From assembly GCA_031259845.1 (NCBI GenBank), contig JAIRKZ010000028.1:1-35419 (forward strand): a stretch of 35,419 bases of DNA. The letters are read 5' to 3'. Within the stretch, counting starts at the first letter, position 1. Every line of letters starts with the position of its first letter. Positions 18,803 to 32,664 of this stretch are shown one piece after another. The translations under genes were made by a program, and so were the position numbers. This stretch comes from Tannerellaceae bacterium (lineage in GTDB: Bacteria; Bacteroidota; Bacteroidia; Bacteroidales; Tannerellaceae). The notes under the pieces were generated by a model, which was not told where the DNA came from, made no database searches, and saw only the letters and a program-made list of their open reading frames with translations.

Positions 18803-19159
18803 ATGGAAACAGCATCTGCACCGCAAAACATCGACGAGTATATCGCCGGATTTCCCGAAAACGTACAAGAATTGATGAAACAGTTGCGTACTACAATCAA
18901 TGAAACAGCTCCCGGAGCCAAAGAAAAAATCAGTTGGGGAATGGCCACTTTTACCATGGAAGGTAATTTGGTTCATTTTGCCGGGCATAAAAAACATATC
19001 GGCTTATATCCCGGCGCAGAGGCTATTGAAGCGTTTAAAGAAAAGCTGAGCGCTTTCAAAACCTCAAAGGGAGCCATACAGCTCCCTCTTGATAAACCGA
19101 TGCCCCTTCCGTTAATAGCTGAAATTGTATCTTTCAATGTAAAGCGGAGAAAAGTGTAG
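18803..19159 (+). CDS. DUF1801 (YdhG/iron-chaperone-like) small protein
   Basis: 118 residues with the DUF1801 pattern: IDEYIAGFPENVQELMKQLRTTI, then APGAKEKISWGMATFTMEGNLVHFAGHKKHIGLYPG, and a basic tail KRRKV. Members have a small alpha/beta fold related to the B. subtilis Fra frataxin-like iron chaperone, but a general role is not established. No signal peptide is present. It has its own promoter and ends 1 bp from the convergent glycosidase gene. Confidence 0.85.
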   Translation: METASAPQNIDEYIAGFPENVQELMKQLRTTINETAPGAKEKISWGMATFTMEGNLVHFAGHKKHIGLYPGAEAIEAFKEKLSAFKTSKGAIQLPLDKPMPLPLIAEIVSFNVKRRKV

Positions 19160-19160
19160 A

Positions 19161-20420
19161 TTACTTCACAATCAGTTTCACGGATTCTCTCCCTGTCTTT
19201 AAGATATAGGCGCCTTCGGGCACGGATAGCGTAAACTCGGTGAGATTACCTTTCGTGGATTGGCGTTTTACTAAGGAGCCGTTCAGACTATACATTTCGA
19301 TTGCCGGATAAGGCGTATCTGTTTCTATCCAAATGGATGTTCCTTTTTCTACCGGGTTGGGATATACTTTCAGGCCGGATACGGGGATGGAAGCCGTACT
19401 TGTTACGGGGCCGCAGTCGGCCTTGTTTTGCCATAGCTGCGATAATTGATTGGCCGCCGCTTTGGGAGCGCCTCCTTCCGTAAATACGCCGAAATGTTTT
19501 TCCGAACCGGTTAGTTCGTTAGCGCCCTGCTTCCACGATTCGTCTACCAATTCAAATACATAACCTCCCGCAACGCCCTGGCACAGGCGGCTGTCTATTT
19601 CATTCCATAGCTGTTTAACCCAATCGGCTTGCAGAGCGCTTGCGTCATCTCCGTTTGCCGCCACGGAACTCCTCCCGAATTCGGACACTACTAAGGGCAT
19701 GCCGTTAGCGGAGAGGCCTTTCCACTGGTCGAAAAGGTTGTAGAAACTCTCGCCCCGGTATATATTCAGCATTACGATATCCGCTCCGCATGTTTTGTAT
19801 TCGGCCATTTCCCGGTCGGTGGGTATTTCGCCATGTACCACGCCAACGAACCGGTTGCATCGTTGCCTGATATTCGTTATCGCTCCGGTAAGATTTGCGA
19901 GCCACGATTCTTTGGTAAACCATTTGTCTGCCCAGTCATATTCGCTTCCAATGTAATGGTAGTTGTATTCATTGCCAAGCAAAACGCCTAATAGCGCGGG
20001 ATGGTTTCCCAGTTCGTCGAGGTATGTTTTGTACAATCCGGAAAGTAAGTCCTGATTAAGATCGAAGCCAATCGAAACAGTCATACCTGCTTCGGCAAGT
20101 TTATCGAACATCCGGCGTGTTTTTTCGTAATTAATACTTCCATTGCCGTTGTAAGCGGCCAGTGGGCGATAGGTGCGGATTGAATTGGCGTGAACGCTTT
20201 TCAATAATGCCAGGTGGCTGTCAAAAGAAGCTTCGAACCCGCGTCCGTTCTGGTCTACCGAATAACAGAAACCATAGATTTTGTAATCTGTCTTTTCTCC
20301 TGTTCCGGCAGTAACAATAATCCTGTTGTCTTTCACTTCGGATTTACTGACAGACTGCGCTGATAACGATGCAAACATACACATCGTACAGCCAAGTAAA
20401 ATACTGATTTTAACCTTCAT
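19161..20420 (-). CDS. Secreted glycosidase-like TIM-barrel protein with T9SS sorting tail
   Basis: 419 residues. Residues 1-21 are a signal peptide ending FASLSAQ. About 45-330 look like a clan GH-A type (beta/alpha)8 barrel. LGNEYNYHYIG places Glu151 as a likely acid/base, and VVSEFGRSS places Glu247 as a likely nucleophile. I cannot assign the GH family securely; GH2-like catalytic domains or glucanosyltransferase-like (GH72/GH17) folds are candidates. Residues 348-419, beginning KVYPNPVEKG and ending VKLIVK, match the type A C-terminal signal used by the type IX secretion system. The protein is therefore predicted to be exported across the outer membrane and anchored or released. A single gene with its own promoter. 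Confidence 0.8.
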   Translation of the reverse strand: MKVKISILLGCTMCMFASLSAQSVSKSEVKDNRIIVTAGTGEKTDYKIYGFCYSVDQNGRGFEASFDSHLALLKSVHANSIRTYRPLAAYNGNGSINYEKTRRMFDKLAEAGMTVSIGFDLNQDLLSGLYKTYLDELGNHPALLGVLLGNEYNYHYIGSEYDWADKWFTKESWLANLTGAITNIRQRCNRFVGVVHGEIPTDREMAEYKTCGADIVMLNIYRGESFYNLFDQWKGLSANGMPLVVSEFGRSSVAANGDDASALQADWVKQLWNEIDSRLCQGVAGGYVFELVDESWKQGANELTGSEKHFGVFTEGGAPKAAANQLSQLWQNKADCGPVTSTASIPVSGLKVYPNPVEKGTSIWIETDTPYPAIEMYSLNGSLVKRQSTKGNLTEFTLSVPEGAYILKTGRESVKLIVK

Positions 20421-20451
20421 AATATAAATGTTTAAGTAGTGATGTATTGAC

Positions 20452-20459
20452 CAAAGATA
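20452..20459 (-). promoter_or_regulatory. -7 promoter element for the T9SS glycosidase gene
   Basis: TATCTTTG on the minus strand matches TAnnTTTG, 32 bp before the ATG at 20420. It separates this gene from the operon ending at 20488. Confidence 0.45.
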
Positions 20460-20487
20460 TTAAAACTATGAGTTTACGTTACGAATT

Positions 20488-21996
20488 CTATAAAAAACCT
20501 TCGCCGCTGTACAGTTCGGATGAAAAGTAATAGGACAGCGCAATCTCGTCTTGGCGAACCATGAGGCGGCTTTGATGGAAAAACAACGAACTTGAAACAT
20601 CGTCAAGGATTCTATCCAGATTCAAAAAAGAATCTTTTGTATATCGCATACGGTCTTCCTTTGCCTGAAAAAGTAAACTGCGAAAGCGCCCAAAAAGGCT
20701 GAACTTACTGAGCACATCAGCGTCAATAAGAATGTTTGCTAAAATCATTGACGCATCTGTCCGTTCCCGTTTTTTGTCTACATGGCGTATTATCAGTTCA
20801 GCCACGGCATCAGCCATGCTTCCGCATCCTATTTCATCCATAATCCGCTTTGCTGTTCTTGCGCCGGCTACTTCGTGAGGTTCTCCGGCAAACTCTTCAA
20901 TGTCGTGCAGCAAGGCGGCCGCGGTCAATACCTCTACACTTATTAAACCCGGCTCAGGCAGATGAAGTGCACGTATGATACGTATGGATTTTTCGGCAAC
21001 ATCCAATGCATGCATATATTCCGGAGGCGTCATCGCAGCCAGGTACGGAAGCAAGCGATGAATCATTGTAACGGCGCGGCAGTTGCCGTACCATGGGCGT
21101 AATTCTTCAATCGCTTGTATTAATTCCTTTTCCCTGGATATAAACATTGACTTGACTTTGTTTTTTATCAAATAGTCGGGAAGGCCATCCATGCCAAACT
21201 CCATGCAGTCGAGCACAGTATCCGTCCCTGCGGGTACAGGCCCGGAGCGGTAACAGGTAGCGGTAAATACGGCTTCTTTTGCGCTGTCCGGGGCGAAACC
21301 TACACATCCAGGCATCCGGAATACCGGTAAATCATTCGTATCATTCCCATAATAATAAAACTGTTTCGTTGCCAGACGCCGCATGATTTCCCTTACGCCG
21401 TGGTCTTTTGTGATTCCGGGTATTTTGTATTCTACAAAAAGCAAATTCGCTTTCCTGACAGTTCCGTCAATCTCAATCAAGCGCGTACCGCCAAACTGTT
21501 CTATTTGTAATCCGGTTTCCGTATTGATTTCCGGCGTTCTGTTTACAAAAGCAAGCAGGCAGCTATATTTGCGATCAATCACATAAAGTCCCGGAGTATC
21601 AACCGAACAATAATGTTCTTTCAATAGTTGAACCTGCCGGGCTAAAGCAGTTACCTGTTTATCACTTGTAAAAACGTCGGTATCATTCCCCGGCTCACAG
21701 CCAAAGCGAACGACAGCTCCCTGTTCGGCAATAAAAAAATCCGCAAAAGGAGCATATTTTAAAAGATCGGCCATCGGCCATCCACTGCAAAGCCCAAATG
21801 CCAGCTTTTTGCTACGTTGCAGATAACGGATGCGTTCCTGTATACGGCTGGGCATTGGAGCCGGAACGATGGAAAACCGGCCTTTCCCGTCTGTCGTTTT
21901 CTCTATCCGAAACAATGTGTCCGATTTTGAACCGCCCGGTTTTAATGTACCGTCTATATCGGATATCAATACGGTTGATTTATCAGATTCCTTCAT
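20488..21996 (-). CDS. HAD phosphatase-HD phosphohydrolase fusion protein
   Basis: 502 residues in two domains. Residues 8-275 form a Cof-type (HAD-IIB) phosphatase: DIDGTL at 13-18 with nucleophile Asp13, Ser71 in CSGWP, Lys197 and the metal-binding GNDTND at 217-222. Residues about 325-440 form an HD domain: His329, the His364-Asp365 doublet, His405 and Asp425 fit the H...HD...H...D metal-ligand pattern. HAD-IIB enzymes often act on sugar phosphates or nucleotides, and HD proteins hydrolyse phosphomono- or diesters. No signal peptide, so cytoplasmic. It starts 14 bp after the methyltransferase gene and is last in the operon. The combination is unusual; the substrate is unknown. Confidence 0.82.
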   Translation of the reverse strand: MKESDKSTVLISDIDGTLKPGGSKSDTLFRIEKTTDGKGRFSIVPAPMPSRIQERIRYLQRSKKLAFGLCSGWPMADLLKYAPFADFFIAEQGAVVRFGCEPGNDTDVFTSDKQVTALARQVQLLKEHYCSVDTPGLYVIDRKYSCLLAFVNRTPEINTETGLQIEQFGGTRLIEIDGTVRKANLLFVEYKIPGITKDHGVREIMRRLATKQFYYYGNDTNDLPVFRMPGCVGFAPDSAKEAVFTATCYRSGPVPAGTDTVLDCMEFGMDGLPDYLIKNKVKSMFISREKELIQAIEELRPWYGNCRAVTMIHRLLPYLAAMTPPEYMHALDVAEKSIRIIRALHLPEPGLISVEVLTAAALLHDIEEFAGEPHEVAGARTAKRIMDEIGCGSMADAVAELIIRHVDKKRERTDASMILANILIDADVLSKFSLFGRFRSLLFQAKEDRMRYTKDSFLNLDRILDDVSSSLFFHQSRLMVRQDEIALSYYFSSELYSGEGFL

Positions 21997-22010
21997 AATA
22001 ATCCGTGTTG

Positions 22011-22721
22011 TTACTTTTCATTACGTGCAATAAAACTCCATGCAACACAATCCGACTGCCCTTCTTTTTCTCCGTGATCAGCCAGTTTATGGTCTAATGT
22101 ATTCATTAACCTGCCCAAAGCATTGTATGTTAAAACTTTTAATGGATTATTTGCCCGGCGAAGCCGCAATGCTATTTCAATGGCATGGAATGCAACGAGA
22201 AAAGGGCCTCCGAGCGGCCATAGCAATTGAGGTTTTAATCCGCAATGTTCAAGCAAATGAGTGATTCCAAACCGGGTAAATCGCCAATAATCGGATGGAT
22301 ATCCATGCGTATGCCAATACTGCGGCACAATCCCTGCCACATACCCACCCGGACGAACAATTCGTTTACACGAAGCAAGAGCGCTAACCGGGTTTTTTAA
22401 ATGTTCAAGAATATAAAAAAGAAAGGCGGCGTCGAAAGAATTTTCCCGGATATCACAATCGCAGATGTCGGCGATAATATCAGCGCCGCTTTGAGAAAGC
22501 GGGTCGAGCGTAACGAGCGTCCCTATCTTCTTCAGCGCCGGATAATACGCTTTATCATCCACGCCGACGTCAAGAATACGGAGTGGCGTGCAGCAGCCGG
22601 ATTCGTTTTGAATCCAGTCAACAATCCGCTCGATGTGGCCATACTTGAAACTGTATGGCGAAAAGAACTTATCAGATGAACAGGTGTGGCGTAATTTCGA
22701 TTGCTGTGCTTCCATCTTCAA
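22011..22721 (-). CDS. SAM-dependent class I methyltransferase (Methyltransf_11-like)
   Basis: 236 residues. LRILDVGVDDKAYY (48-60) occupies the motif I position but lacks the usual GxGxG; instead it reads DVGVDD. Asp73 ends the second strand (LVTLDP). EHLKNP (106-111) and RPGG (123-126) match post-motif features of Methyltransf_11/UbiE-like enzymes. HTHGYPSDYWRFTRFG (137-152) is reminiscent of methyltransferases acting on glycans or small metabolites. The gene begins inside the 3' end of the radical SAM gene (50-bp overlap), and the next start codon is 14 bp after its stop. The acceptor is unknown, and the altered motif I leaves some doubt about SAM binding. Confidence 0.82.
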   Translation of the reverse strand: MKMEAQQSKLRHTCSSDKFFSPYSFKYGHIERIVDWIQNESGCCTPLRILDVGVDDKAYYPALKKIGTLVTLDPLSQSGADIIADICDCDIRENSFDAAFLFYILEHLKNPVSALASCKRIVRPGGYVAGIVPQYWHTHGYPSDYWRFTRFGITHLLEHCGLKPQLLWPLGGPFLVAFHAIEIALRLRRANNPLKVLTYNALGRLMNTLDHKLADHGEKEGQSDCVAWSFIARNEK

Positions 22722-24549
22722 TATAATTACAAGTGATTACGTTCAAAGTATCCTCGAGGCATGTTGGCATACAGGCTGAAGGAGATGTTTTCAAAAAACG
22801 TTCGATTTGTTTTTGCTTTATTTCATCCGGATTACCTGTTAACAAACCAAGTTTTTCACCTCCGTTTTCTGAAAACATTCTGCAAGGAAAACACTCTTCC
22901 TTCGCATTGACCAGAAGAAAAAGAAGTGAAAAATAACACGACCGCGCTTTTGGTTTCCGTTCAGCCTGCCAGGGCCATATTCCTTCCTTTGCCGGAATGA
23001 GATGCGCATAATTTGTCTGGATATTTACAAACTCGGCAAAATCATTGTTGGCATTCATCAGTTGTTCCATACGGCTTATTATCCGTTTTAATTGGGGCAA
23101 AGTTGGTTTTTCAACAGCATTTCCGTGAACCGGGCGCTGTTGGATATTTAATTTCTTTTTCTTTAATTGATACATTTCCAATAAAAAGTCGGGGAACTCT
23201 TCACAGTTGTCTCTCTGAAACAGATACCCTACGCCAACGGTTGCAATTTCAGAATCCAGGTAACGTTTAATATTGTACTTTACAGTATGGAGGTTGTTCC
23301 TTTGCTTGATTTTCCGGTAAGTATTTTCACTCCATGCGTCACATGAAACACGAACCCAATCAAGGCGTTTTGTAAAATCTCCATCCGGGAAATAAGAACC
23401 GTTTGTTATTAACCCGATACGGGCCGCCGTTGTTTCGCTAAGCAGTTTCACCATATCGGAGAATGTTTTATTTCCGTTTTTGTAAAGCGTCGGCTCGCCG
23501 CCACCGGCCAATGTTATGCTTTGTGGCCGTAGCCCGGCGATATAATAAAAATCCTCAAAAGGAATCGTTTGCTTTAACTTTTGTCCGGTATAAGAGCAGT
23601 AAAGGCAATCCAAATTACATACGTTTGTTGGATGCAATTCAATTGTCGCATAGGAAAACGGGCTTTTTTTATCATACTGCTTTAATAATTCCAAACCTTT
23701 CCCTCCTGTCTTTTCCCTGATGGCCTCTTTCATATCGGCCAGTATTCCCAGATGATTCAACAACCTCGTTTTTGAACGGATTTGCCTGACGGTTACATAT
23801 CCTTTTTCCTGTGAATGTGTAATAGTTCCTTCTTCGAGGTTTTTTGTCAGCGCTGGATGAAATTTTGTTAGTTTATTATATGATACCAGGCTTATTGTAT
23901 CAATATCTAAAGGGCCGCAACCGGCCTCTTTTACAGCATGCATCACATTCAAAAATCCGCTCAGTTCATCTCCTGATAACTGCCGATACAGATAGCCAAG
24001 CGAAACATGCGCTCCAAAGTCAGGCAATTGTTTGCCCGTAGCGGTTTCAAGTAAAGAACGGATATGCAATATCCTGTTTAAATCGCTCTCTTTGACAAAA
24101 TGAACCTTGACAACTATACATCCTGCATCCGACAGGCCAATCCCTTCAATCCTGGCTTTCACTACGCCGGGTTTATCCAGTTTTCCGAATACTGCATTTA
24201 CTTCTTCAAAACGTTTTGCGTATAATTTGGCGAATTTATCCTTTATAGAAGTTTGAACGTCTTCCTCCCAGTCCAAATCATATATAGTAACATGCCATGA
24301 TTCTTCGGGAAGAAAATAGACAATATCTTTTAATGCTGTTTTATTCAAAAGCAACTGTATTTTGTTTTGAAGTTTTTGAAGTTTTTCAAAACTCTTCTCT
24401 TGCGGAGAAATGAATTTGATGATGCTCAATCCATTCATTAATTGAGGTATTCCGTTTTTGAAAGCGTTAGAAAGCGAAAACGTTGTCCTGCCTTCAAGCC
24501 TAAAACGCCTTTCCAGAATGTTTTCATATACTGATATTTCGTTTTCCAT
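22672..24549 (-). CDS. 2H phosphoesterase-like/radical SAM fusion protein
   Basis: 625 residues from the ATG at 24549. The frame stays open 50 codons further upstream, but that part is AT-rich, reads as a false hydrophobic stretch and contains the promoter. The N-terminal domain (about 30-240) carries two H-x-[ST]-hydrophobic motifs, WHVTIYDL (His86) and AHVSLGYL (His181). This spacing is that of the 2H (LigT/CPD-like) superfamily, which opens cyclic phosphodiesters or works on RNA ends. The radical SAM domain starts near 300, with Cys311-x3-Cys315-x2-Cys318 for the [4Fe-4S] cluster and GGGEP at 349-353. C-terminal cysteines at 538, 553, 556, 593, 597 and 607 could bind an auxiliary cluster, as in SPASM-type enzymes. 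First gene of a three-gene operon. Confidence 0.83.
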   Translation of the reverse strand: MENEISVYENILERRFRLEGRTTFSLSNAFKNGIPQLMNGLSIIKFISPQEKSFEKLQKLQNKIQLLLNKTALKDIVYFLPEESWHVTIYDLDWEEDVQTSIKDKFAKLYAKRFEEVNAVFGKLDKPGVVKARIEGIGLSDAGCIVVKVHFVKESDLNRILHIRSLLETATGKQLPDFGAHVSLGYLYRQLSGDELSGFLNVMHAVKEAGCGPLDIDTISLVSYNKLTKFHPALTKNLEEGTITHSQEKGYVTVRQIRSKTRLLNHLGILADMKEAIREKTGGKGLELLKQYDKKSPFSYATIELHPTNVCNLDCLYCSYTGQKLKQTIPFEDFYYIAGLRPQSITLAGGGEPTLYKNGNKTFSDMVKLLSETTAARIGLITNGSYFPDGDFTKRLDWVRVSCDAWSENTYRKIKQRNNLHTVKYNIKRYLDSEIATVGVGYLFQRDNCEEFPDFLLEMYQLKKKKLNIQQRPVHGNAVEKPTLPQLKRIISRMEQLMNANNDFAEFVNIQTNYAHLIPAKEGIWPWQAERKPKARSCYFSLLFLLVNAKEECFPCRMFSENGGEKLGLLTGNPDEIKQKQIERFLKTSPSACMPTCLEDTLNVITCNYIEDGSTAIEITPHLFI

Positions 24550-24584
24550 AGGTTCAATCCCGTGTTTTATAATTAATGTATAAA

Positions 24585-24592
24585 CAAAGATA
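24585..24592 (-). promoter_or_regulatory. -7 promoter element for the radical SAM operon
   Basis: TATCTTTG on the minus strand matches TAnnTTTG, 35 bp before the ATG at 24549. It lies within the longer open frame and so decides against the upstream start. Confidence 0.45.
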
Positions 24593-24755
24593 TCTAATAT
24601 TATTGTTTTTGAAAACACTATAAGTAGGAAAAACAGGATGTATTTCCGGTAAAATATGAATATCTTTATATCTTTCAAAGACTGTAGCGATAAGCACAAA
24701 AACAGATAAGGCAGCTATGGGAAATATGAATCTGTGCCATAGCCACAGTGACTAA

Positions 24756-25052
24756 ATGGAACAATTAAATCTTAGCCTGACAATGTTAGGCCGCCGGCTT
24801 GAAAGAGGGTATATGGAATATGGTTTTTGCACGTCTGACGGACATGAGTATTGGTGCAAACAATATGAGCTTGACACTATCATGGGGCGCGTGACGCGCA
24901 TTCGCCTGTGGCATTTTCTCAGAGACTGGGAAAAAGAACAGGGGAAAACAGAAAGCGAATTGACAAACTATGAGGATTTCAAACGAATGCTGGCTACAAA
25001 AAACTGGCCGGATGGTTTTGATCCGGGGTATGTTCCATACCAATATGAGTAA
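24756..25052 (+). CDS. Small orphan protein, function unknown
   Basis: 98 residues, MEQLNLSLTMLGRRLERGYMEYGFC and onward (cut short here), with charged helices, several tryptophans (WCKQYELD, LWHFLRDWEKEQ, NWPDGFDPGY) and no signal or membrane segment. I do not recognise the family. A TATCTTTA/TATCTTTC pair at about 24660-24678 could serve as promoter. A dyad GCTATGG...CCATAGC (about 24713-24742) lies just before the start. It is divergent from the radical SAM operon, so it could be a regulator or partner of it, but nothing in the protein shows this. Confidence 0.5.
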   Translation: MEQLNLSLTMLGRRLERGYMEYGFCTSDGHEYWCKQYELDTIMGRVTRIRLWHFLRDWEKEQGKTESELTNYEDFKRMLATKNWPDGFDPGYVPYQYE

Positions 25053-25405
25053 TAATTTATCGGCGAGACGCAGAACTTACGCTTGAAAGCCATTGGGAAA
25101 TGCGAATGATGAACGATTATAGATGCAGGCGTGTTTGAATAAAAACATTTTGCTATTTTAGCATTCTGTCATTTTATCCCATCCCTGTCTCGCTTATTTG
25201 TACTCCAATCCGGGACGACCTCAAAAAATACGCTGTATTTTATACTTGCCTTTTGATAAAATAATATAAAAAGAAAGGAAGTGTTGACTATATGCGCGCC
25301 ATTTAAGCATATACATAATAAAACGGAGCAAAAAAACAACTGTTTGCTATCTGTTTGCTCAATAAAAACAGTGGCTGAAAATAGTTGTTCCAGCGCCGTT
25401 CCGAA

Positions 25406-25790: not shown

Positions 25791-25874
25791 TTATCAGTAT
25801 GACAATAGGTGGAGCTAAATTGAAAGACGAATGGCGGCTTGCAGATTAATGAAAATGTAGTAAAGAATTTACTG

Positions 25875-26435
25875 ATGCTTAAAGAAAATTCGTTAGTTTA
25901 TACAGATTGTATACAGAATGATTTTGATAGAATCTACCTTAGTTATTTCTATCGGTTGCATCGTTTCGCCAAAGAATATGTGATGTCCGACGCCGACGCC
26001 GAGAATATCGTGCAAGATGTTTTTTTATTGCTTTGGGAGAAACGGGAAGTCTTGAATATACAAATCAGTCTTACGGCCTATTTATTTTCTTTAGTAAAGA
26101 ATAAATGTATCGATCATCTCCGTCATAGAGTTATAGCCAATGAATTTCAGCAGGAATTATCCTTAAAGCTGGCCTCTTTGGAAGAATTGGATAGCGCCTT
26201 TGTTTCAGAAGAAGAAATAGAACGGTTTCTTTCCGACGCCATAAATAAGTTACCCGAACGCTGCCGGGAAATATTCATCAAGAGCCGTATTGAAGGAAAG
26301 AAATACCGCGAGATAGCCGAAGAACTGAATATTTCCGTTAATACGGTAGAAAACCAAATAGCCATCGCATTGAGAAAGCTCCGAATCGAATTAAAAGATT
26401 ACCTCCCCTTATTGCTTTTCTTTACTGTTTGTTAA
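25875..26435 (+). CDS. ECF sigma-70 factor, FecI-like
   Basis: 186 residues from the ATG at 25875. A TTG at 25839 would add 12 residues and cannot be excluded. Region 2 is FDRIYLSYFYRLHRFAKEYVMSDADAENIVQDVFLLLWEKRE, given here only as its extent (about residues 18-60). Region 4 is marked by LPERCREIFIKSRIEG and the helix-turn-helix KYREIAEELNISVNTVENQI. It is expected to direct RNA polymerase to the downstream uptake genes when released by the FecR protein encoded 88 bp on. The context (sigma, FecR, SusC with STN domain, SusD) is the classic trans-envelope signalling layout of Bacteroidales polysaccharide or glycoprotein use. Confidence 0.93.
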   Translation: MLKENSLVYTDCIQNDFDRIYLSYFYRLHRFAKEYVMSDADAENIVQDVFLLLWEKREVLNIQISLTAYLFSLVKNKCIDHLRHRVIANEFQQELSLKLASLEELDSAFVSEEEIERFLSDAINKLPERCREIFIKSRIEGKKYREIAEELNISVNTVENQIAIALRKLRIELKDYLPLLLFFTVC

Positions 26436-26468
26436 ATAATATTTATTTATAAATACAATTTAGTGGTA

Positions 26469-26486
26469 AGCGTTATTATAAACGCT
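26469..26486. other. Hairpin between sigma and anti-sigma genes
   Basis: AGCGTT-ATTATA-AACGCT is a perfect 6-bp stem. A second imperfect stem (GCG-A-CCTG...CAGG-CGC, about 26496-26517) ends just before the fecR-like start at 26524 and might affect its translation. Confidence 0.35.
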
Positions 26487-26523
26487 CTTAATATGCGACC
26501 TGTAATATGCAGGCGCTATTGAA

Positions 26524-27498
26524 ATGAATGAACTGATAGAGAAATACTTTAAAGGAAATCTTTCTTCTGTTGAGAAGAAACAACTCTTTGCATTGATTGA
26601 AATGGATGTTAACTTAAAAAAAGAGTTTATTTCTACACAGAATTTATATGCGGTGTCATCTTTATTACCAGACAAAGAGGATGAAAGCAGAGCTTTACCC
26701 AAGTTAAAGCAGTTCAAACAAAAGCGTTTAGAACGAACCGCTATACATCTGTTCAGGCATATAGCGCGCTATGCGGCGGCCGTTTGTTTGGCGGTTTTGT
26801 TAACGTGGGCGTATATGAAACAGCCTGCTCCTCCGGCAGATGAACCTGTTATTGCCTGGCAGGAATTGGTTACTCCTCCCGGACAACGGGCGATGGTGAA
26901 ATTGGCTGATGGCACAACCGTATGGTTAAACGCCCGTTCGTCTTTACGCTATCCTGCTGCCTTTGCAAAAACAGAGCGAAAAGTGGAACTCGACGGAGAA
27001 GCCTATTTTGATGTAGAGCATAAGGACGAGCAACCGTTTATTGTTTCCACCGAAAAATTAACTATTAAAGTATTAGGCACTGAATTTAATGTACACGCAT
27101 ACAAAGGGCGGAATGAATTTAACGCCGCGCTTATAAAAGGTTCGGTCAAAATATATAATAAAGGGCATGAAGAAAATGCTTTATTCATCTCTCCGAATGA
27201 ATATGTGGAACTGATAGATAACCGGCTGGTGAAAAAAGAATTCGGAAATACGGACTTCCTGTTATGGAAGGAGGGAATTTATGCATTCGATGATGTGGCA
27301 TTTACGGAGATAATACACAAATTGGAGTTGTATTATGATGTAACGATACAGATAGCAAATGAAAAATTAAGTACGTACCAGTTTACCGGAAAATTCCGTC
27401 AGCGCGACGGCGTGGAAAGCGTTTTGCGAACCCTGCAGAAAGTATATTATTTCAGATTTACAAAAGATGAAGAGAATAATGTAATCACAATTAGATAG
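26524..27498 (+). CDS. FecR-family anti-sigma factor (DUF4974 C-terminus)
   Basis: 324 residues. Residues 1-75 are the cytoplasmic sigma-binding part. One transmembrane helix is near 81-97. The periplasmic FecR domain shows TPPGQRAMVKLADGTTVWLN (117-136) and VELDGEAYFDV (154-164), and a DUF4974 domain occupies about 254-320 (FDDVAFTEIIHKLELYYDV...). FecR proteins hold the sigma factor and are triggered by the STN domain of the cognate outer-membrane receptor. Such a receptor is the next gene. Confidence 0.94.
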   Translation: MNELIEKYFKGNLSSVEKKQLFALIEMDVNLKKEFISTQNLYAVSSLLPDKEDESRALPKLKQFKQKRLERTAIHLFRHIARYAAAVCLAVLLTWAYMKQPAPPADEPVIAWQELVTPPGQRAMVKLADGTTVWLNARSSLRYPAAFAKTERKVELDGEAYFDVEHKDEQPFIVSTEKLTIKVLGTEFNVHAYKGRNEFNAALIKGSVKIYNKGHEENALFISPNEYVELIDNRLVKKEFGNTDFLLWKEGIYAFDDVAFTEIIHKLELYYDVTIQIANEKLSTYQFTGKFRQRDGVESVLRTLQKVYYFRFTKDEENNVITIR

Positions 27499-27598
27499 AT
27501 AGACAGAAAAAGGAACAACTTAACAACCCTGATATAAACAACCCTAATGTATAATCAATTAACAATCAAATGCCTATGATGTAAATAAAAAATGAAGA

Positions 27599-27626
27599 AC
27601 CGGCAAGCGTTGCAGCGCTTACCGGT
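27599..27626. other. Hairpin in the leader of the SusC-like gene
   Basis: ACCGG and AAGCG pair with CGCTT and CCGGT across one C-A mismatch, with a TTGCAG loop. No T-run follows, so it is not a simple terminator. It lies in the 187-bp gap between the fecR-like and susC-like genes, where a sigma-dependent promoter would also be expected, and may act in attenuation or mRNA stability. Confidence 0.45.
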
Positions 27627-27685
27627 AAAGAAGCTAACACAAAATTTAATTAATTAAGTATTAACAAGTAAAATGACACAAAGTT

Positions 27686-30600
27686 ATGAAAAAAGAACCT
27701 TTGTCCAATCTTTTATTATTTCAAAATTATCATGTTACGAAATTTTTGAATATTATGAGAATTTCAACCTTCCTCCTTTTTCTTTGTGTTTTCACGTCGT
27801 TTGCAGCAAAAGTCAACTCTCAGAATGCACGTGTAAACATCAGTGAAAACAGTCTGACGATTAGTGAATTTATCGATCAGGTAGAAAAGCAAACAGATTA
27901 TTTGTTTGTATACAGCAAAAACGAATTGAATGTAAATGAAGTGCTTCGTTTACGTTCGGGAAGTAAATCGGTAGCGCAGTATCTCAATGAAGCGTTTACA
28001 GACAAAGACGTAAGATATGTGTTTGAAAACGATTACATTGTATTAACAAAAAGCGGGATTACATCTGTTACCCAACAAGGGAAAACCCTTACAGGTACTG
28101 TTACCGACGGCGACGGCGAGCCGGTTATAGGCGCCAACATTGTAGTAAGAGGCACAACAATCGGCACAGTGACGGATATCGACGGCAAATATACATTACC
28201 CGGCGTTCCGGCCAACGCCGTACTTCTGGTATCATACATCGGATACCTGACAAAGGAAATAGCTGTGGGCGCCCAGACAGTTGTTAATGTTACCTTATCG
28301 GAAGACTCGCAAGCTTTAGAAGAAGTAGTGGTAGTAGGTTATGGTACGATGCGTAAATCAGACGTTACCGGTTCTATCTCCGTTACAAAAGGGGAAGACA
28401 TCGTGAAAACGCAAAACTTTAGCCCGCTGGATGCTCTCAGGGGTAAAGCTGCCGGCGTTAATATCTATTCAAACTCAAGCCAGCCGGGCAACTACGGCAA
28501 CCGTGTTGTGATTCGCGGTAATTCAACCATCCTGGCTTCCGCCGACCCATTGTATGTGGTAGACGGCGTGGTAATGAGTGAATTCTATCAGGTCAACCCG
28601 AATGATATCGAAAGTATCGAGGTATTGAAAGATGCTTCGTCTGCAGCTATTTATGGAGCCAGGGGCGCCAATGGCGTTATTCTTGTTACTACAAAAAGAG
28701 GTAATAAAGGACAAGGCACAGTGGTAAGCTACCAGGGCTCGGTAAGTATGAATACGGTGGCCCGTTATATGGATACGCTGAATGCGCAGGAATGGGCGGA
28801 TACCTTTATGAAGGGGTTGGAAAATGAAAATAAATGGCAGGGTAAAAACTGGTCGTTGAACCGTGCGGAATGGTTTACCGACAGGGATTATTTTGATGCA
28901 AACGGTAATCCGATATACGATACCGACTGGCAAAGAGAAGCCACCCATGCCAGTGTTTCGCATAATCACCAGTTGAATATCCAGCAGGGCGGGCCAAAGT
29001 CGTCAATGGGTACTTTCCTTAATTATACGGATATGCAGGGTATCGTTAATGATACGTATACCAAGCGTGTAAATGCCAAATTTGCATACGACGCAAAGCC
29101 GTTGCCGTGGCTGTCTACTGCCGTAAACTTAATGGTAAACCATACCTGGGGACGCTATACGCCGGAATCGGGCGGAGGACAAGACGCCCGCCGTACGATG
29201 ATAGAAATGCTTCCCTGGCTGCCGGTACGCGACAAGAACGGTAATTATACCACCTCGGCCACATCAACGATGAACGACGTATTTGGTTTTGAAGGGATGT
29301 CTAACCCGGTAATGATTCTCGACCTGCAAAAACGTATGACGTATAATACGAAAATATTCGGTAATGCCGCTTTGACTTTCCACCTGCTGGATGGCCTGGA
29401 TTTAAAGACGCAATTGGGTATCGATAATTATCATAAGGCGTATAAAGGATACTCTTCGGTTACGCTGAATAATATTTCCATGCCCAACGGATGGGCCGAA
29501 CGGACGCATGACGAAATGCTCTACTGGCAGGAAGAAACCTATCTTACGTACAACAAAGTGTTTGACAAGCACCGCGTGAATGCCATGGCCGGACTTTCCT
29601 GGCAGGAATACACCAAGCATTACGACTACTCCAGAACAGAAGGGTTCTCAGACGACTTTTACGAATATTATAAAATGAGCGTAGGAACCTCCCCTTCGGC
29701 TCCCGATTCATCCTGGGAACGCTGGCGGATGAACTCATTCTTCCTGCGTTTGGCGTATACCTATAATGATAAGTATTCGGCTACGTTGACGGGGCGTTAC
29801 GACGGTTCGTCCAAATTCGGCAAGAACAACAAATACGCATTCTTCCCCTCCGCCGGCTTGGCATGGAATGCCAAGAATGAAGATTTCCTGCTGGATAATC
29901 CATTGATAAGTAACCTGAAGGTGCATACGAGCTATGGTTTTACGGGTAACTCCGAAATAGGCGTTTACCAGTCGCTGGCAAGCGTAGAAGCAACGACGGG
30001 CCTGCTGAACGGAACGCGCGCTCCCTTTTCCCGGATTAATACGATGGCGAACCCGGATTTGAGATGGGAAAAAACGGGCATGTTCGACGTAGGTTTCGAT
30101 TTGGGCCTGTTCAATCAGCGATTGACCTTCGATGTTTCTTACTACAATAAGAAAACGACCGACCTTTTATTGAATCAGCCGCTTCCCCGCTCAACCGGTT
30201 TTACTTCGGTAACGAGCAATATCGGTTCGGTGAAAAACCAGGGATTCGACCTCATGATTACCGGCCGCCCCGTACAAACCCGCGACTTCTCATGGACAGC
30301 CTCTCTGAGCGCCAACTATAATAAGAACGAAATCGTGAAGCTGGGCGAAAACGACGAAGACATCGAAACGCATGGCTGGGTAGGAGGTTCCGAAGGCGTT
30401 ATCCGCGTGGGAGAATCGCTGAACAGCTTCTACGGGTACAGAAGATATGGCGTGTATACGGTGCAGGATTACGAAGCCGGACTGTGCGATATGGAACAAA
30501 TCGGACGCGCCAAACGCTCGGATAAAAAAGAAATATTGGGCAAAGGCGCGCCGGACTGGACGGGCAGCTTTATCAATAATTTAAGCTACAAGAACTTTGA

Positions 30601-31081
30601 CCTTTCGGTTGATCTGCAATTTGTATACGGCGTTGAAACCATGCAGCAATATTATCACTCGGTGTACGACCGCTTCGGGATTACGAACGGCCTGAGCAAT
30701 ATTTTGTACGACGCTTACGACGGGACGAATCCGGGCGCCATGCAGCAGGCCGTTTATCTGATGAACTCCGGCCATGCCGGACAGGATACTACGGTAGACT
30801 CTGCATGGGTAGTGGATGGCTCATACCTCCGGCTGAATATGCTGCAATTAGGCTATACGCTTACTTCCCGGCAGGCCAAATCGCTGGGACTGGCCGGCTT
30901 GCGTCTCTATTTGAGCGGCAATAACCTGTTTCTCCTTACTTCGAGCGACTTTACGGGATACGACCCGGAAAGCACCTCGCAGATCAGTACGAGTTACGAA
31001 AGCAAGTTTGGGCAGAACATGACGTTCTTCTCTTATCCGAGAGCCAGGACGTATACGCTGGGTGTTAATGTAACGTTTTAA
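27686..31081 (+). CDS. SusC/RagA-family TonB-linked outer-membrane transporter with STN domain
   Basis: 1131 residues. A signal peptide spans about 24-46 (inner Met at 24 is a possible alternative start). Residues 50-121 are an STN (secretin/TonB short N-terminal) domain, the signalling module of FecA-type receptors. Residues 132-207 are the carboxypeptidase-regulatory-like domain (GTVTDGDGEPVIGANIVV). The TonB box-like EEVVVVGYG is at 212-220 and the plug follows to about 345. The barrel runs to the final LGVNVTF. The STN domain explains the adjacent sigma/anti-sigma pair. It should import oligosaccharides or peptides captured by the SusD partner. No degradative enzyme lies beside it, so the substrate is open. 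Confidence 0.96.
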   Translation: MKKEPLSNLLLFQNYHVTKFLNIMRISTFLLFLCVFTSFAAKVNSQNARVNISENSLTISEFIDQVEKQTDYLFVYSKNELNVNEVLRLRSGSKSVAQYLNEAFTDKDVRYVFENDYIVLTKSGITSVTQQGKTLTGTVTDGDGEPVIGANIVVRGTTIGTVTDIDGKYTLPGVPANAVLLVSYIGYLTKEIAVGAQTVVNVTLSEDSQALEEVVVVGYGTMRKSDVTGSISVTKGEDIVKTQNFSPLDALRGKAAGVNIYSNSSQPGNYGNRVVIRGNSTILASADPLYVVDGVVMSEFYQVNPNDIESIEVLKDASSAAIYGARGANGVILVTTKRGNKGQGTVVSYQGSVSMNTVARYMDTLNAQEWADTFMKGLENENKWQGKNWSLNRAEWFTDRDYFDANGNPIYDTDWQREATHASVSHNHQLNIQQGGPKSSMGTFLNYTDMQGIVNDTYTKRVNAKFAYDAKPLPWLSTAVNLMVNHTWGRYTPESGGGQDARRTMIEMLPWLPVRDKNGNYTTSATSTMNDVFGFEGMSNPVMILDLQKRMTYNTKIFGNAALTFHLLDGLDLKTQLGIDNYHKAYKGYSSVTLNNISMPNGWAERTHDEMLYWQEETYLTYNKVFDKHRVNAMAGLSWQEYTKHYDYSRTEGFSDDFYEYYKMSVGTSPSAPDSSWERWRMNSFFLRLAYTYNDKYSATLTGRYDGSSKFGKNNKYAFFPSAGLAWNAKNEDFLLDNPLISNLKVHTSYGFTGNSEIGVYQSLASVEATTGLLNGTRAPFSRINTMANPDLRWEKTGMFDVGFDLGLFNQRLTFDVSYYNKKTTDLLLNQPLPRSTGFTSVTSNIGSVKNQGFDLMITGRPVQTRDFSWTASLSANYNKNEIVKLGENDEDIETHGWVGGSEGVIRVGESLNSFYGYRRYGVYTVQDYEAGLCDMEQIGRAKRSDKKEILGKGAPDWTGSFINNLSYKNFDLSVDLQFVYGVETMQQYYHSVYDRFGITNGLSNILYDAYDGTNPGAMQQAVYLMNSGHAGQDTTVDSAWVVDGSYLRLNMLQLGYTLTSRQAKSLGLAGLRLYLSGNNLFLLTSSDFTGYDPESTSQISTSYESKFGQNMTFFSYPRARTYTLGVNVTF

Positions 31082-31104
31082 TTAACTTGATAAAGAATTA
31101 CGAT

Positions 31105-32664
31105 ATGAAGAAAATAATATATTTGTTTGCTTGTGCAGCTTTATTAATCAGCGCTACGGGCTGCGAAGGTTTTTTGGAAGAAGAGCCGAAAGACAGGTTG
31201 ACTTCGGGAGCTTATTACCAAACCGAAGCTCAGGCAACGGCCAATGTAAATTGGCTCTATTGGGAAGGCGCAGTAAAACGCCTTGGCGAAGCAAGCAGCG
31301 CTTATATAGGGCCTACCGCTTCGATTCCGGGTATGCTGACGGGTTATTTTGTAAACAGTTACGAAGGCCAGGAAATCATCTGCATGTATTCGCGCCAATT
31401 GACGCGCCAGCAATATACGGCTACGATGACCAGTACGCTGAACAATATGTGGGATTACAGTTACAGAGCCATTAATATTGCCAATGGCGCTATCAAACAT
31501 ATTCCCGATATAGCGATGAGCGAAGCCGGCAAGGCCAAATTGCTGGGCGAAGCCAAATTCTTCCGCGCGCTCAACTATTTTTACCTGGTTAAGTCATTCG
31601 GAGATGTGCCGATGCCTGTAGACCCCTACGAATCGTTAGAAAATCTCTACCTGGAACGCACGGCTGCGGCCACCGTATACAGCCTGGTGGAAGCAGACCT
31701 GAAGGAAGCGGTAGAGGCTTTGCCGGCCGTTTTGTTCTCTAACGGGCATCGCATCACCCGGTATGCTGCGGCCATGCTGCTCTCTACCGTTTATTTCTAT
31801 CAGGGAAAATATGCCGAAGCGGCGCAGTATAGCAAAATAGTGGTAGACTCGCCCCACACGCTGGCTACCAATACCGATTGGGCAGAAAACAGCGCATTCA
31901 ACAAACTGCGCACCACCGACGACCTTGACGAGGTAATCTATGCCATTGAGTTTGACGCAAACATCCGCAAAAGCAGTTGGTGGCCCACGTACTCGTTTAA
32001 TTCGGGCGCAACGGCGGTATTCAATAAATACGCTATTTTTGAAAGGGTGTACGGCCCCGTCAACCTTTTCCTGAATGTCTATGCTGAAGACGATTTGCGC
32101 ATCCAGCCGAATCAGTTCTTCCATTGGGAATATACCAACCCGCAGACGGGCGCCGAATGGAAATCCGAGATACCCGGTTGCTGGTATTATTTCGACGAAG
32201 AAGCGATGCTGAATACCGGCAACGGTACGAAAGACTGGAATATCTTCCGCTATGCGGAAGCGTTGCTGGTAGCCGCCGAATCGATTGCCCAGACCACCGG
32301 CGTAACCGCCGAAGCAGCCGGCTACCTGGCCCAGATTAAAGCGCGTGCGGATATGAAAGGTAAAACAGCAGCCCAGTATACGGCCGAATTGCAGGGCTTA
32401 TCCAAAGACGCCTTTATCCGGGAATGCTGGACGGAGCGTTTGCGCGAATTTCCGCTGGAATTTAAAATCTGGGACGATTGCGTACGCACCGGAAAATTCC
32501 CCGTTATCTCCCAAACGCAGAAAGGGCAGGTAAGCTATGTAGATTTAATCGGCGCCGAGAATGCTTCGGGGGCAACCTTTAAGGATTCGGATTTGTTATG
32601 GCCCATCTCCTTAGACGAATTGCAGCGCAACCCGAAATTAACTCAAAATCCGGGTTATAAATAA
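31105..32664 (+). CDS. SusD/RagB-family surface lipoprotein
   Basis: 519 residues from the ATG at 31105, which gives a clean lipoprotein signal. A TTG at 31087 would add six residues before it. Lipidation is expected at Cys20 (SATGC), followed by an acidic stretch EGFLEEEPKD, the kind of surface-export signal seen in Bacteroidota lipoproteins. SusD landmarks include the N-terminal FLEEEPKDRLTSGAYYQTEAQA-like region, LLGEAKFFRALNYFYLVKSFGDVP and a C-terminal RNPKLTQNPGY. It caps the SusC barrel and binds the ligand. Its start is 23 bp after the susC-like stop. Confidence 0.95.
   Translation: MKKIIYLFACAALLISATGCEGFLEEEPKDRLTSGAYYQTEAQATANVNWLYWEGAVKRLGEASSAYIGPTASIPGMLTGYFVNSYEGQEIICMYSRQLTRQQYTATMTSTLNNMWDYSYRAINIANGAIKHIPDIAMSEAGKAKLLGEAKFFRALNYFYLVKSFGDVPMPVDPYESLENLYLERTAAATVYSLVEADLKEAVEALPAVLFSNGHRITRYAAAMLLSTVYFYQGKYAEAAQYSKIVVDSPHTLATNTDWAENSAFNKLRTTDDLDEVIYAIEFDANIRKSSWWPTYSFNSGATAVFNKYAIFERVYGPVNLFLNVYAEDDLRIQPNQFFHWEYTNPQTGAEWKSEIPGCWYYFDEEAMLNTGNGTKDWNIFRYAEALLVAAESIAQTTGVTAEAAGYLAQIKARADMKGKTAAQYTAELQGLSKDAFIRECWTERLREFPLEFKIWDDCVRTGKFPVISQTQKGQVSYVDLIGAENASGATFKDSDLLWPISLDELQRNPKLTQNPGYK

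Follow-up and report, generated by a model that had tools for sequence, protein, structure and literature searches.

Gene organization and domain composition

The window, i.e. the whole stretch of 35,419 nucleotides analysed here, contains a trio of minus-strand genes at 20488–24549 that encode a 2H-radical SAM fusion, a class I methyltransferase and an HAD-HD fusion. The genes and the promoter-type boxes around them are as follows.

22672–24549, minus strand: 2H phosphoesterase-radical SAM fusion, 625 aa, open reading frame from ATG, assigned by Pfam and motifs
22011–22721, minus strand: class I SAM-dependent methyltransferase, 236 aa, open reading frame from TTG, Methyltransf_11
20488–21996, minus strand: HAD-HD fusion, 502 aa, open reading frame, HD over the cut-off, HAD below the cut-off but with its motifs present
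24585–24592, minus strand: TAnnTTTG box TATCTTTG, 35 bp before the first ATG
20452–20459, minus strand: second TAnnTTTG box TATCTTTG, preceding the next gene

The first two genes overlap by 50 bp (22672–22721) and a gap of 14 bp (21997–22010) separates the methyltransferase from the HAD-HD gene; this arrangement, described in the earlier note, is borne out by the list of open reading frames. The methyltransferase frame has an in-frame ATG two codons after the TTG, and that start would shorten the overlap to 44 bp. Upstream, the frame of the 2H-radical SAM gene continues without a stop as far as a TTG at 24699 (675 aa). The ATG at 24549 is preferred, because window 24574–24646 aligns with a stretch of the genus mate G013 (see below) that lies between an AraC-like open reading frame and the next gene. 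A foreign origin as judged by codon use was not supported, the three genes falling within the range of 20 other open reading frames of the window.

Five domains acting on phosphate or SAM are spread over the three genes, and the domain reading proposed earlier proved correct for all three proteins in a Pfam scan and by catalytic motifs. In the 236-aa protein, Methyltransf_11 scored 40.5 bits against a cut-off of 21.2 (E 4.5e-10). By motif, this enzyme may resemble the methyltransferases of polysaccharide clusters. At E 1e-6 it had matches in 21 of 149 genomes of the order, its own included, the 20 others being remote (best E 4e-17). The catalytic motifs of HAD-IIB proteins are DxD, S/T, K and GDxxxD/GNDxxD, and all four occur in this order in the 502-aa protein as D13xD15, S71, K182 and GND219xxD222, in agreement with a Cof-type HAD-IIB domain. 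The profile scores of this part stayed below the cut-offs, both for Hydrolase_3 in Pfam (17.7 against 20.9 bits, 3.2 short) and for the NCBIfam models Cof (16.3 against 137) and HAD-SF-IIB (14.8 against 41.8). The HD domain passed in Pfam (27.9 bits, cut-off 22) and carries the residues of an HD phosphohydrolase (H329, H364-D365, D425/D427). The structure of the HAD-HD protein, predicted without relatives, had a mean pLDDT of 35.

The TAnnTTTG motif is of the Bacteroidetes promoter type, and the box ahead of the first ATG is a candidate promoter. Across the window the motif occurs 29 times, no more often than in shuffles (30.7 expected), which makes a single box weak evidence. Between 20300 and 25300, sigma-70-like promoters numbered 18 (12.1 expected) and terminator-like sites 6 (5.3 expected). 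No terminator stands out after the last gene, where 20420–20500 folds worse than all 200 shuffles.

The radical SAM half and its family

In the 625-aa protein the 2H part occupies the first ~250 residues and the radical SAM domain residues 300–600. Radical_SAM passed in Pfam (40.7 bits, cut-off 29.5). Relatives of this half were identified in 24 loci from many phyla by an alignment-based scan (two patterns, yielding 66 stretches and from these the 24 relatives). The window protein was aligned with 15 of them, leaving out L041 as a duplicate of L040 as well as the weak or partial L055 and L057–L063. In the resulting 16 rows the CX3CX2C motif of the superfamily (C311, C315, C318) is invariant and GGGEP is common to all, reading GGGEPT at residues 349–354 of the window protein. 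The C-terminal cysteines of the latter lie at 538, 553, 556, 593 and 597, with C538 invariant and C597 nearly so. A SPASM/twitch-like C-terminus is suggested by the match of the alignment profile to the C-terminus of BtrN (E 2e-4); PF13186 had no match in the window protein. Ahead of the radical domain the family shows a motif NRxLNHxxLI, present in the window linker as RLLNHLGIL (262–270). Twelve of the 15 relatives retain it in the form LNH or FNH, and 9 of the 15 end in FF. In a tree the window protein sits on its own long branch, and its placement is unsure. Viral contigs scanned with the radical SAM alignment gave 29 candidate loci.

Among the VIA-align matches listed, the folds nearest to the modelled radical half are those of DesII and BlsE (14% and 13% identity), with peptide enzymes close behind. 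When all open reading frames of the 24 loci were searched, several of these loci being short contigs, 2H, HAD or HD matches at E < 0.05 turned up in 0/24, and the only methyltransferase match was weak and generic (L051, E 0.003). In at least six of the 24 loci (L042, L043, L046, L050 and L051 by Pfam, L045 by NCBIfam) the gene directly downstream encodes another radical SAM enzyme. Two relatives, in L050 and L053, are fused to a GT4 glycosyltransferase; in L050 the gene after the fusion encodes the second radical SAM enzyme.

These folds and neighbourhoods bear on a different function, in which a SPASM-type maturase would act on a peptide or protein, the methyltransferase and phosphatase domains providing further tailoring. 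SkfB and SuiB are close to the radical half and level with BlsE, and some relatives sit among several consecutive radical SAM genes, the one in L051 also adjoining TIR, AAA and FGE-domain genes. A precedent is offered by MoxR-vWA conflict systems, in which a radical SAM enzyme is reported as likely to modify a peptide effector (PMC7159879). No precursor gene was recognised, the one small neighbour scanned (24756–25052, plus strand) being divergent, 98 aa long and without family. We know of no place for HAD, HD and 2H domains in RiPP pathways, and consider peptide modification quite unlikely. Tailoring of a surface polysaccharide (capsule or O-antigen), one sugar unit of which the trio would methylate and dephosphorylate, would fit the sugar genes near some relatives, namely DegT in L044, an epimerase in L049 and, by eye, glycosyltransferases and a flippase in L051. 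The three window neighbours scanned are instead a T9SS-sorted protein and a DUF1801 protein (18803–20420) and the 98-aa frame. We consider this function very unlikely.

The 2H half

Both HxT/S motifs of 2H proteins are present, as HVT at 86–88 (H86, T88) and HVS at 181–183 (H181, S183). The Pfam model 2H-phosphodiest (PF08975) scored 20.0 bits in the fusion protein, one bit short of its cut-off of 21. The 2H half has a relative within a C–P lyase (phn) operon, a stand-alone 2H protein in locus L109 of genome G778, which passes PF08975 with 25.2 bits. Aligning the two gave a score of 101, with 62 as the best of 1000 shuffles, and the HxT/S motifs line up. The link to the phn operon rests on this shuffle test and Pfam and not on single-genome E values. 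As to the LigT-like bilobal fold of 2H enzymes, this part of the predicted structure has mostly pLDDT < 50, and no 2H fold appears among the fold matches listed. Our literature search retrieved no work joining radical SAM enzymes with a 2H phosphoesterase, the 2H superfamily or DUF1868, nor, among the papers listed, any on the trio as a set. An article that mentions both C–P lyase and a 2H phosphoesterase (PMC3840354) names the latter solely in its reference list.

A match of the HAD part in genome G694 (E 2.6e-6) falls in an open reading frame that resembles a cyanophycin synthetase by sequence reading and was judged to be chance; single-genome matches near this E value can therefore be fortuitous.

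Spread of the two fusions

Neither the 2H-radical SAM nor the HAD-HD fusion was seen in a second genome among the searched samples, which overlap and form a fraction of the available genomes. The whole 2H-radical SAM protein gave seven matches in 60 near relatives (its own and six at E 8.6e-15 to 5.3e-4) and, at E 1e-10, eleven in 395 genomes of the phylum (its own and ten of one genus); the rows shown start at residue 286 or later, i.e. in the radical part. The HAD-HD query matched two of the 395 phylum genomes, namely its own and a second one with similarity limited to the HD part; among 249 genomes of the phylum of G544 all 13 matches, in frames of 159–294 aa, were confined to that part. 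A joined 2H and HAD-HD query returned only the own genome from 123 genomes of the family, and three from 295 of the order (the own genome, one 2H relative and one judged to be chance). The same query gave one match at E up to 0.01 in the 24 genomes that harbour a relative of the radical SAM half and two in 200 genomes of the phylum of G543, all in the HD part only. Searched with a few short peptide patterns, contigs of 84,980 species (one genome each) and viral contigs gave 25 and 13 pattern matches to the 2H-radical SAM protein, respectively, and no relative among them. For the HAD-HD protein, viral contigs gave one pattern match and no relative, and phages no match; plasmids held no match to either fusion.

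A conserved order of the trio was found neither in the 24 radical SAM loci nor in the searches for other HAD-HD fusions. The earlier note had named scattered homologs as evidence against a linked system. This applies to the radical SAM half, the relatives of which are scattered and have no 2H, HAD or HD match in the 24 loci; for the HAD-HD protein the searched genomes gave no second fusion to compare.

An empty site in a close relative

The genus was compared across 18 genomes, the own genome included. The genus mate G013 is without a block of ~4.1 kb (window 20460–24573) at the same spot, in its locus L104. Two features flank the block.

24574–24646, minus strand: left anchor, 73 bp, aligned with G013 L104 1105–1177 at 83.6%; carries a TATCTTTG box and is a candidate cassette promoter
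20441–20487, minus strand: right edge of the cassette; the long G013 alignment ends at 20459, the second TATCTTTG box precedes the next gene, and a weak direct repeat of 42 columns is shared with the left edge

The downstream genes are in the same order in G013, L104 1159–6759 aligning with window 20459–14896 at 90.6% DNA identity over 5.6 kb. As both alignments use L104 1159–1177, the block edges are known to ~20 bp. The direct repeat between the edges is merely suggestive, 14 of 1000 shuffles reaching its score. G013 has one TAnnTTTG-type box, TACCTTTG, before the T9SS-type gene, where the window has one TATCTTTG at each edge. Further out, L104 1026–1075 matches window 25111–25062 (50 bp, 94%) with the end of the AraC-like open reading frame of G013, and L104 1–1025 has no alignment to the window. 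Elsewhere in G013, queries with the 2H, HAD-HD and radical SAM proteins found no match.

The block is accordingly accessory, being absent as a unit from a close relative. Since G013 is missing all of it, the three genes probably come or go together, gained or lost as one block, and the empty site supports the earlier view of the trio as one unit. The left anchor measures no more than 73 bp and stems from one genome, and a rearrangement with breakpoints at this spot may also account for the pattern instead of simple presence or absence. Moreover, the spot is variable, as seen from the AraC-like frame of G013 and from the 98-aa frame (24756–25052), which is likewise absent there; genome G016 has other genes beyond DUF1801.

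This variability, together with the lack of a conserved order in the searches above, would suit three unrelated accessory genes that are accidental neighbours and were lost jointly only through proximity. Such an origin is somewhat unlikely in view of the single strand, the 50-bp overlap and 14-bp gap, the five phosphate- or SAM-acting domains within three genes and the single block missing in G013.

Proposed function

In summary, the locus holds real genes in an accessory block with two rare fusions. The best supported reading, put forward tentatively, is that the three genes form a small accessory cassette which tailors a single substrate, a phosphorylated sugar or nucleoside. The data show the domains, their motifs, the gene order, the presence or absence of one block between two genomes and the fold class of the radical half, whereas we infer the substrate class, the order of steps and the action of all three proteins on one compound. 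The radical SAM enzyme, with its putative SPASM/twitch-like cluster region at the C-terminus, would remove a hydrogen atom from the substrate's sugar moiety and then oxidise, deaminate, decarboxylate or rearrange this moiety. Capping of the new group would fall to the methyltransferase, and the HAD and HD domains would take off phosphate groups. The 2H domain may open a cyclic phosphodiester of this compound, mere binding being less likely, and its fusion to the radical enzyme could allow local hand-over of the substrate. A phosphorylated metabolite or nucleotide, as suggested in the earlier note, is still plausible given DesII and BlsE, which act on sugar nucleotides and nucleosides, as nearest folds and the 2H relative in a C–P lyase operon.

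A bolder version is unlikely: a self-contained, transferable three-gene pathway to a new metabolite, a phosphorylated sugar or nucleoside. Its radical SAM enzyme, equipped with its own cyclic phosphodiesterase, would act on a cyclic-phosphate intermediate, which a dual HAD-HD phosphatase would then strip. Should the tailoring reading hold, the locus would be a very small candidate pathway coupling radical chemistry with phosphate removal. What draws attention to the locus is that two fusions found nowhere else among the searched genomes sit side by side in a block absent from a close relative. With related genomes that do and do not carry the block, the product should be testable by comparison if the tailoring reading holds. 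Even if it fails, a wide radical SAM family with the NRxLNHxxLI motif, nameless in the scanned libraries, has been marked out.

Comparison with known systems

The cassette is not filed under viperin, MoaA, Pnkp-Hen1 or OxsAB, because each failed a defining test. Viperin, prokaryotic viperin and MoaA are the closest proteins by plain sequence, far under the curated cut-offs. A viperin-like maker of antiviral nucleotides draws on the PADLOC model pVip (E 1.5e-15) and on viperin-like enzymes as the best matches of the single sequence among solved structures (E 7.7e-6). It is most improbable. The NCBIfam score for viperin is 46.9 against 180, and the window protein differs from viperin and MoaA in its 2H domain and its putative SPASM/twitch-like C-terminus. 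The NCBIfam scores for MoaA were 50.4 against 325.25, 46.0 against 231 and 40.3 against 284.05. Repair or editing of RNA or tRNA ends in the manner of Pnkp-Hen1 would draw on 2H, HD and HAD domains, all of which are known from enzymes that process RNA ends. A Pfam scan of the three proteins found no Hen1 methyltransferase and nothing of the Pnkp kinase-phosphatase-ligase; the end-healing analogy of the earlier note gains no support, and such a role appears highly improbable.

Weak matches link each of the three proteins to one of three NCBIfam models that we take to describe one gene neighbourhood, which we treat as a lead only: the HD part matches the DVU_1551 NTP transferase (E 2e-5, 23.8 against a cut-off of 315), the methyltransferase DVU_1556 (E 0.046, 13.2 against 155) and the radical SAM domain TrsS (E 5.6e-4, 18.6 against 490). 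In DVU_1551 the HD domain is fused to an NTP transferase, in the window to HAD. 2H phosphoesterases of the DUF1868/PF08975 type, such as the L109 protein, have the two HxT/S motifs of the 2H half and are significantly similar to it in pairwise alignment; they stand alone whereas the window 2H domain is fused to radical SAM. The fusions in L050 and L053 show the same radical family joined to other enzyme domains, with a GlnD-like part and GT4 where the window protein carries 2H. DesII, a dTDP-sugar ammonia-lyase, and BlsE, a cytosylglucuronate decarboxylase, are the closest solved folds in the VIA-align listing; to our knowledge, neither has a 2H fusion and both belong to other operons.

In oxetanocin A biosynthesis, the radical SAM enzyme OxsB acts in the same pathway as the HD phosphohydrolase OxsA, and dephosphorylation finishes the product (PMC7074753, PMC13331322). 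The pairing of a radical SAM enzyme with an HD phosphohydrolase is common to both systems. OxsB is cobalamin-dependent, whereas the Pfam scan found no B12-binding domain in the three window proteins, which sets them apart from OxsAB; the 2H, HAD and methyltransferase parts are additional. In its manner of working the tailoring cassette may be likened to OxsB/OxsA: the substrate would undergo radical chemistry and methylation, and the HAD, HD and 2H domains would take off phosphates.

Relatives of the radical SAM domain

Among the loci that carry relatives of the window's radical SAM domain, two encode fusions of about 1240 aa in which, by domain scan, this domain is joined to a GT4 glycosyltransferase. 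Their hosts are a Clostridiaceae MAG and a Chlorobium MAG, respectively.

L050:5522-9250, plus strand, radical SAM and GT4 glycosyltransferase fusion
L053:5534-9235, plus strand, radical SAM and GT4 glycosyltransferase fusion

The fusions also include a GlnD-like part, which exceeds the Pfam cut-off in L050 only. At both loci the fusion is followed by a 447-aa gene, identified as radical SAM by scan in L050. Two further loci, L040 and L041, belong to Planctomycetales MAGs and seemingly represent one and the same stretch; here, a phosphorylase-superfamily gene (PNP_UDP_1 by scan in L040) ends at the start of the radical SAM gene.

Elsewhere, radical SAM genes recur as runs of two to four (L042, L043, L045, L046 and L051), the extent of each run being counted from the radical SAM-homologous gene onward. 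The MAG titles of these loci read Nitrospirae, Magnetococcales, Chlorobiaceae and Prevotellaceae. Behind the run in L051 lie a TIR gene, an AAA gene that resembles MoxR on visual inspection, and a gene with an FGE domain; in L045, the run gives way to an ORF with an nSTAND3 match below the cut-off. The radical SAM runs are possibly linked to NTP-dependent conflict systems.

Surroundings of the cassette

A second variable piece (24756-25111) is found at the spot occupied by the three-gene cassette. It contains a 98-aa ORF to which family scans assigned no family and which had no match among the other 17 genomes of the genus. Next to this ORF, a 50-bp stretch matches G013, a genus mate lacking the cassette at this spot, where the corresponding sequence ends an AraC-like ORF. 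In another comparison genome, G016 (L105 1-5157), gene content past DUF1801 differs considerably from that of the window: ORFs of 950 aa and 459 aa are present where the window carries the T9SS gene and the cassette. Judged by eye from ORFs and their sizes, 25839-32664 of the window appears to encode an ECF sigma factor, a FecR-type anti-sigma factor and SusC/SusD-type proteins, and looks like a polysaccharide-use locus.

A 2H protein in a C-P lyase operon

A relative of the 2H domain lies within a C-P lyase operon in a genome of the window's order.

L109:676-1515, minus strand, 2H phosphoesterase

It has a phnM-like gene on one side and a gene for a phn hexapeptide transferase on the other, and perhaps fills the role of PhnP.
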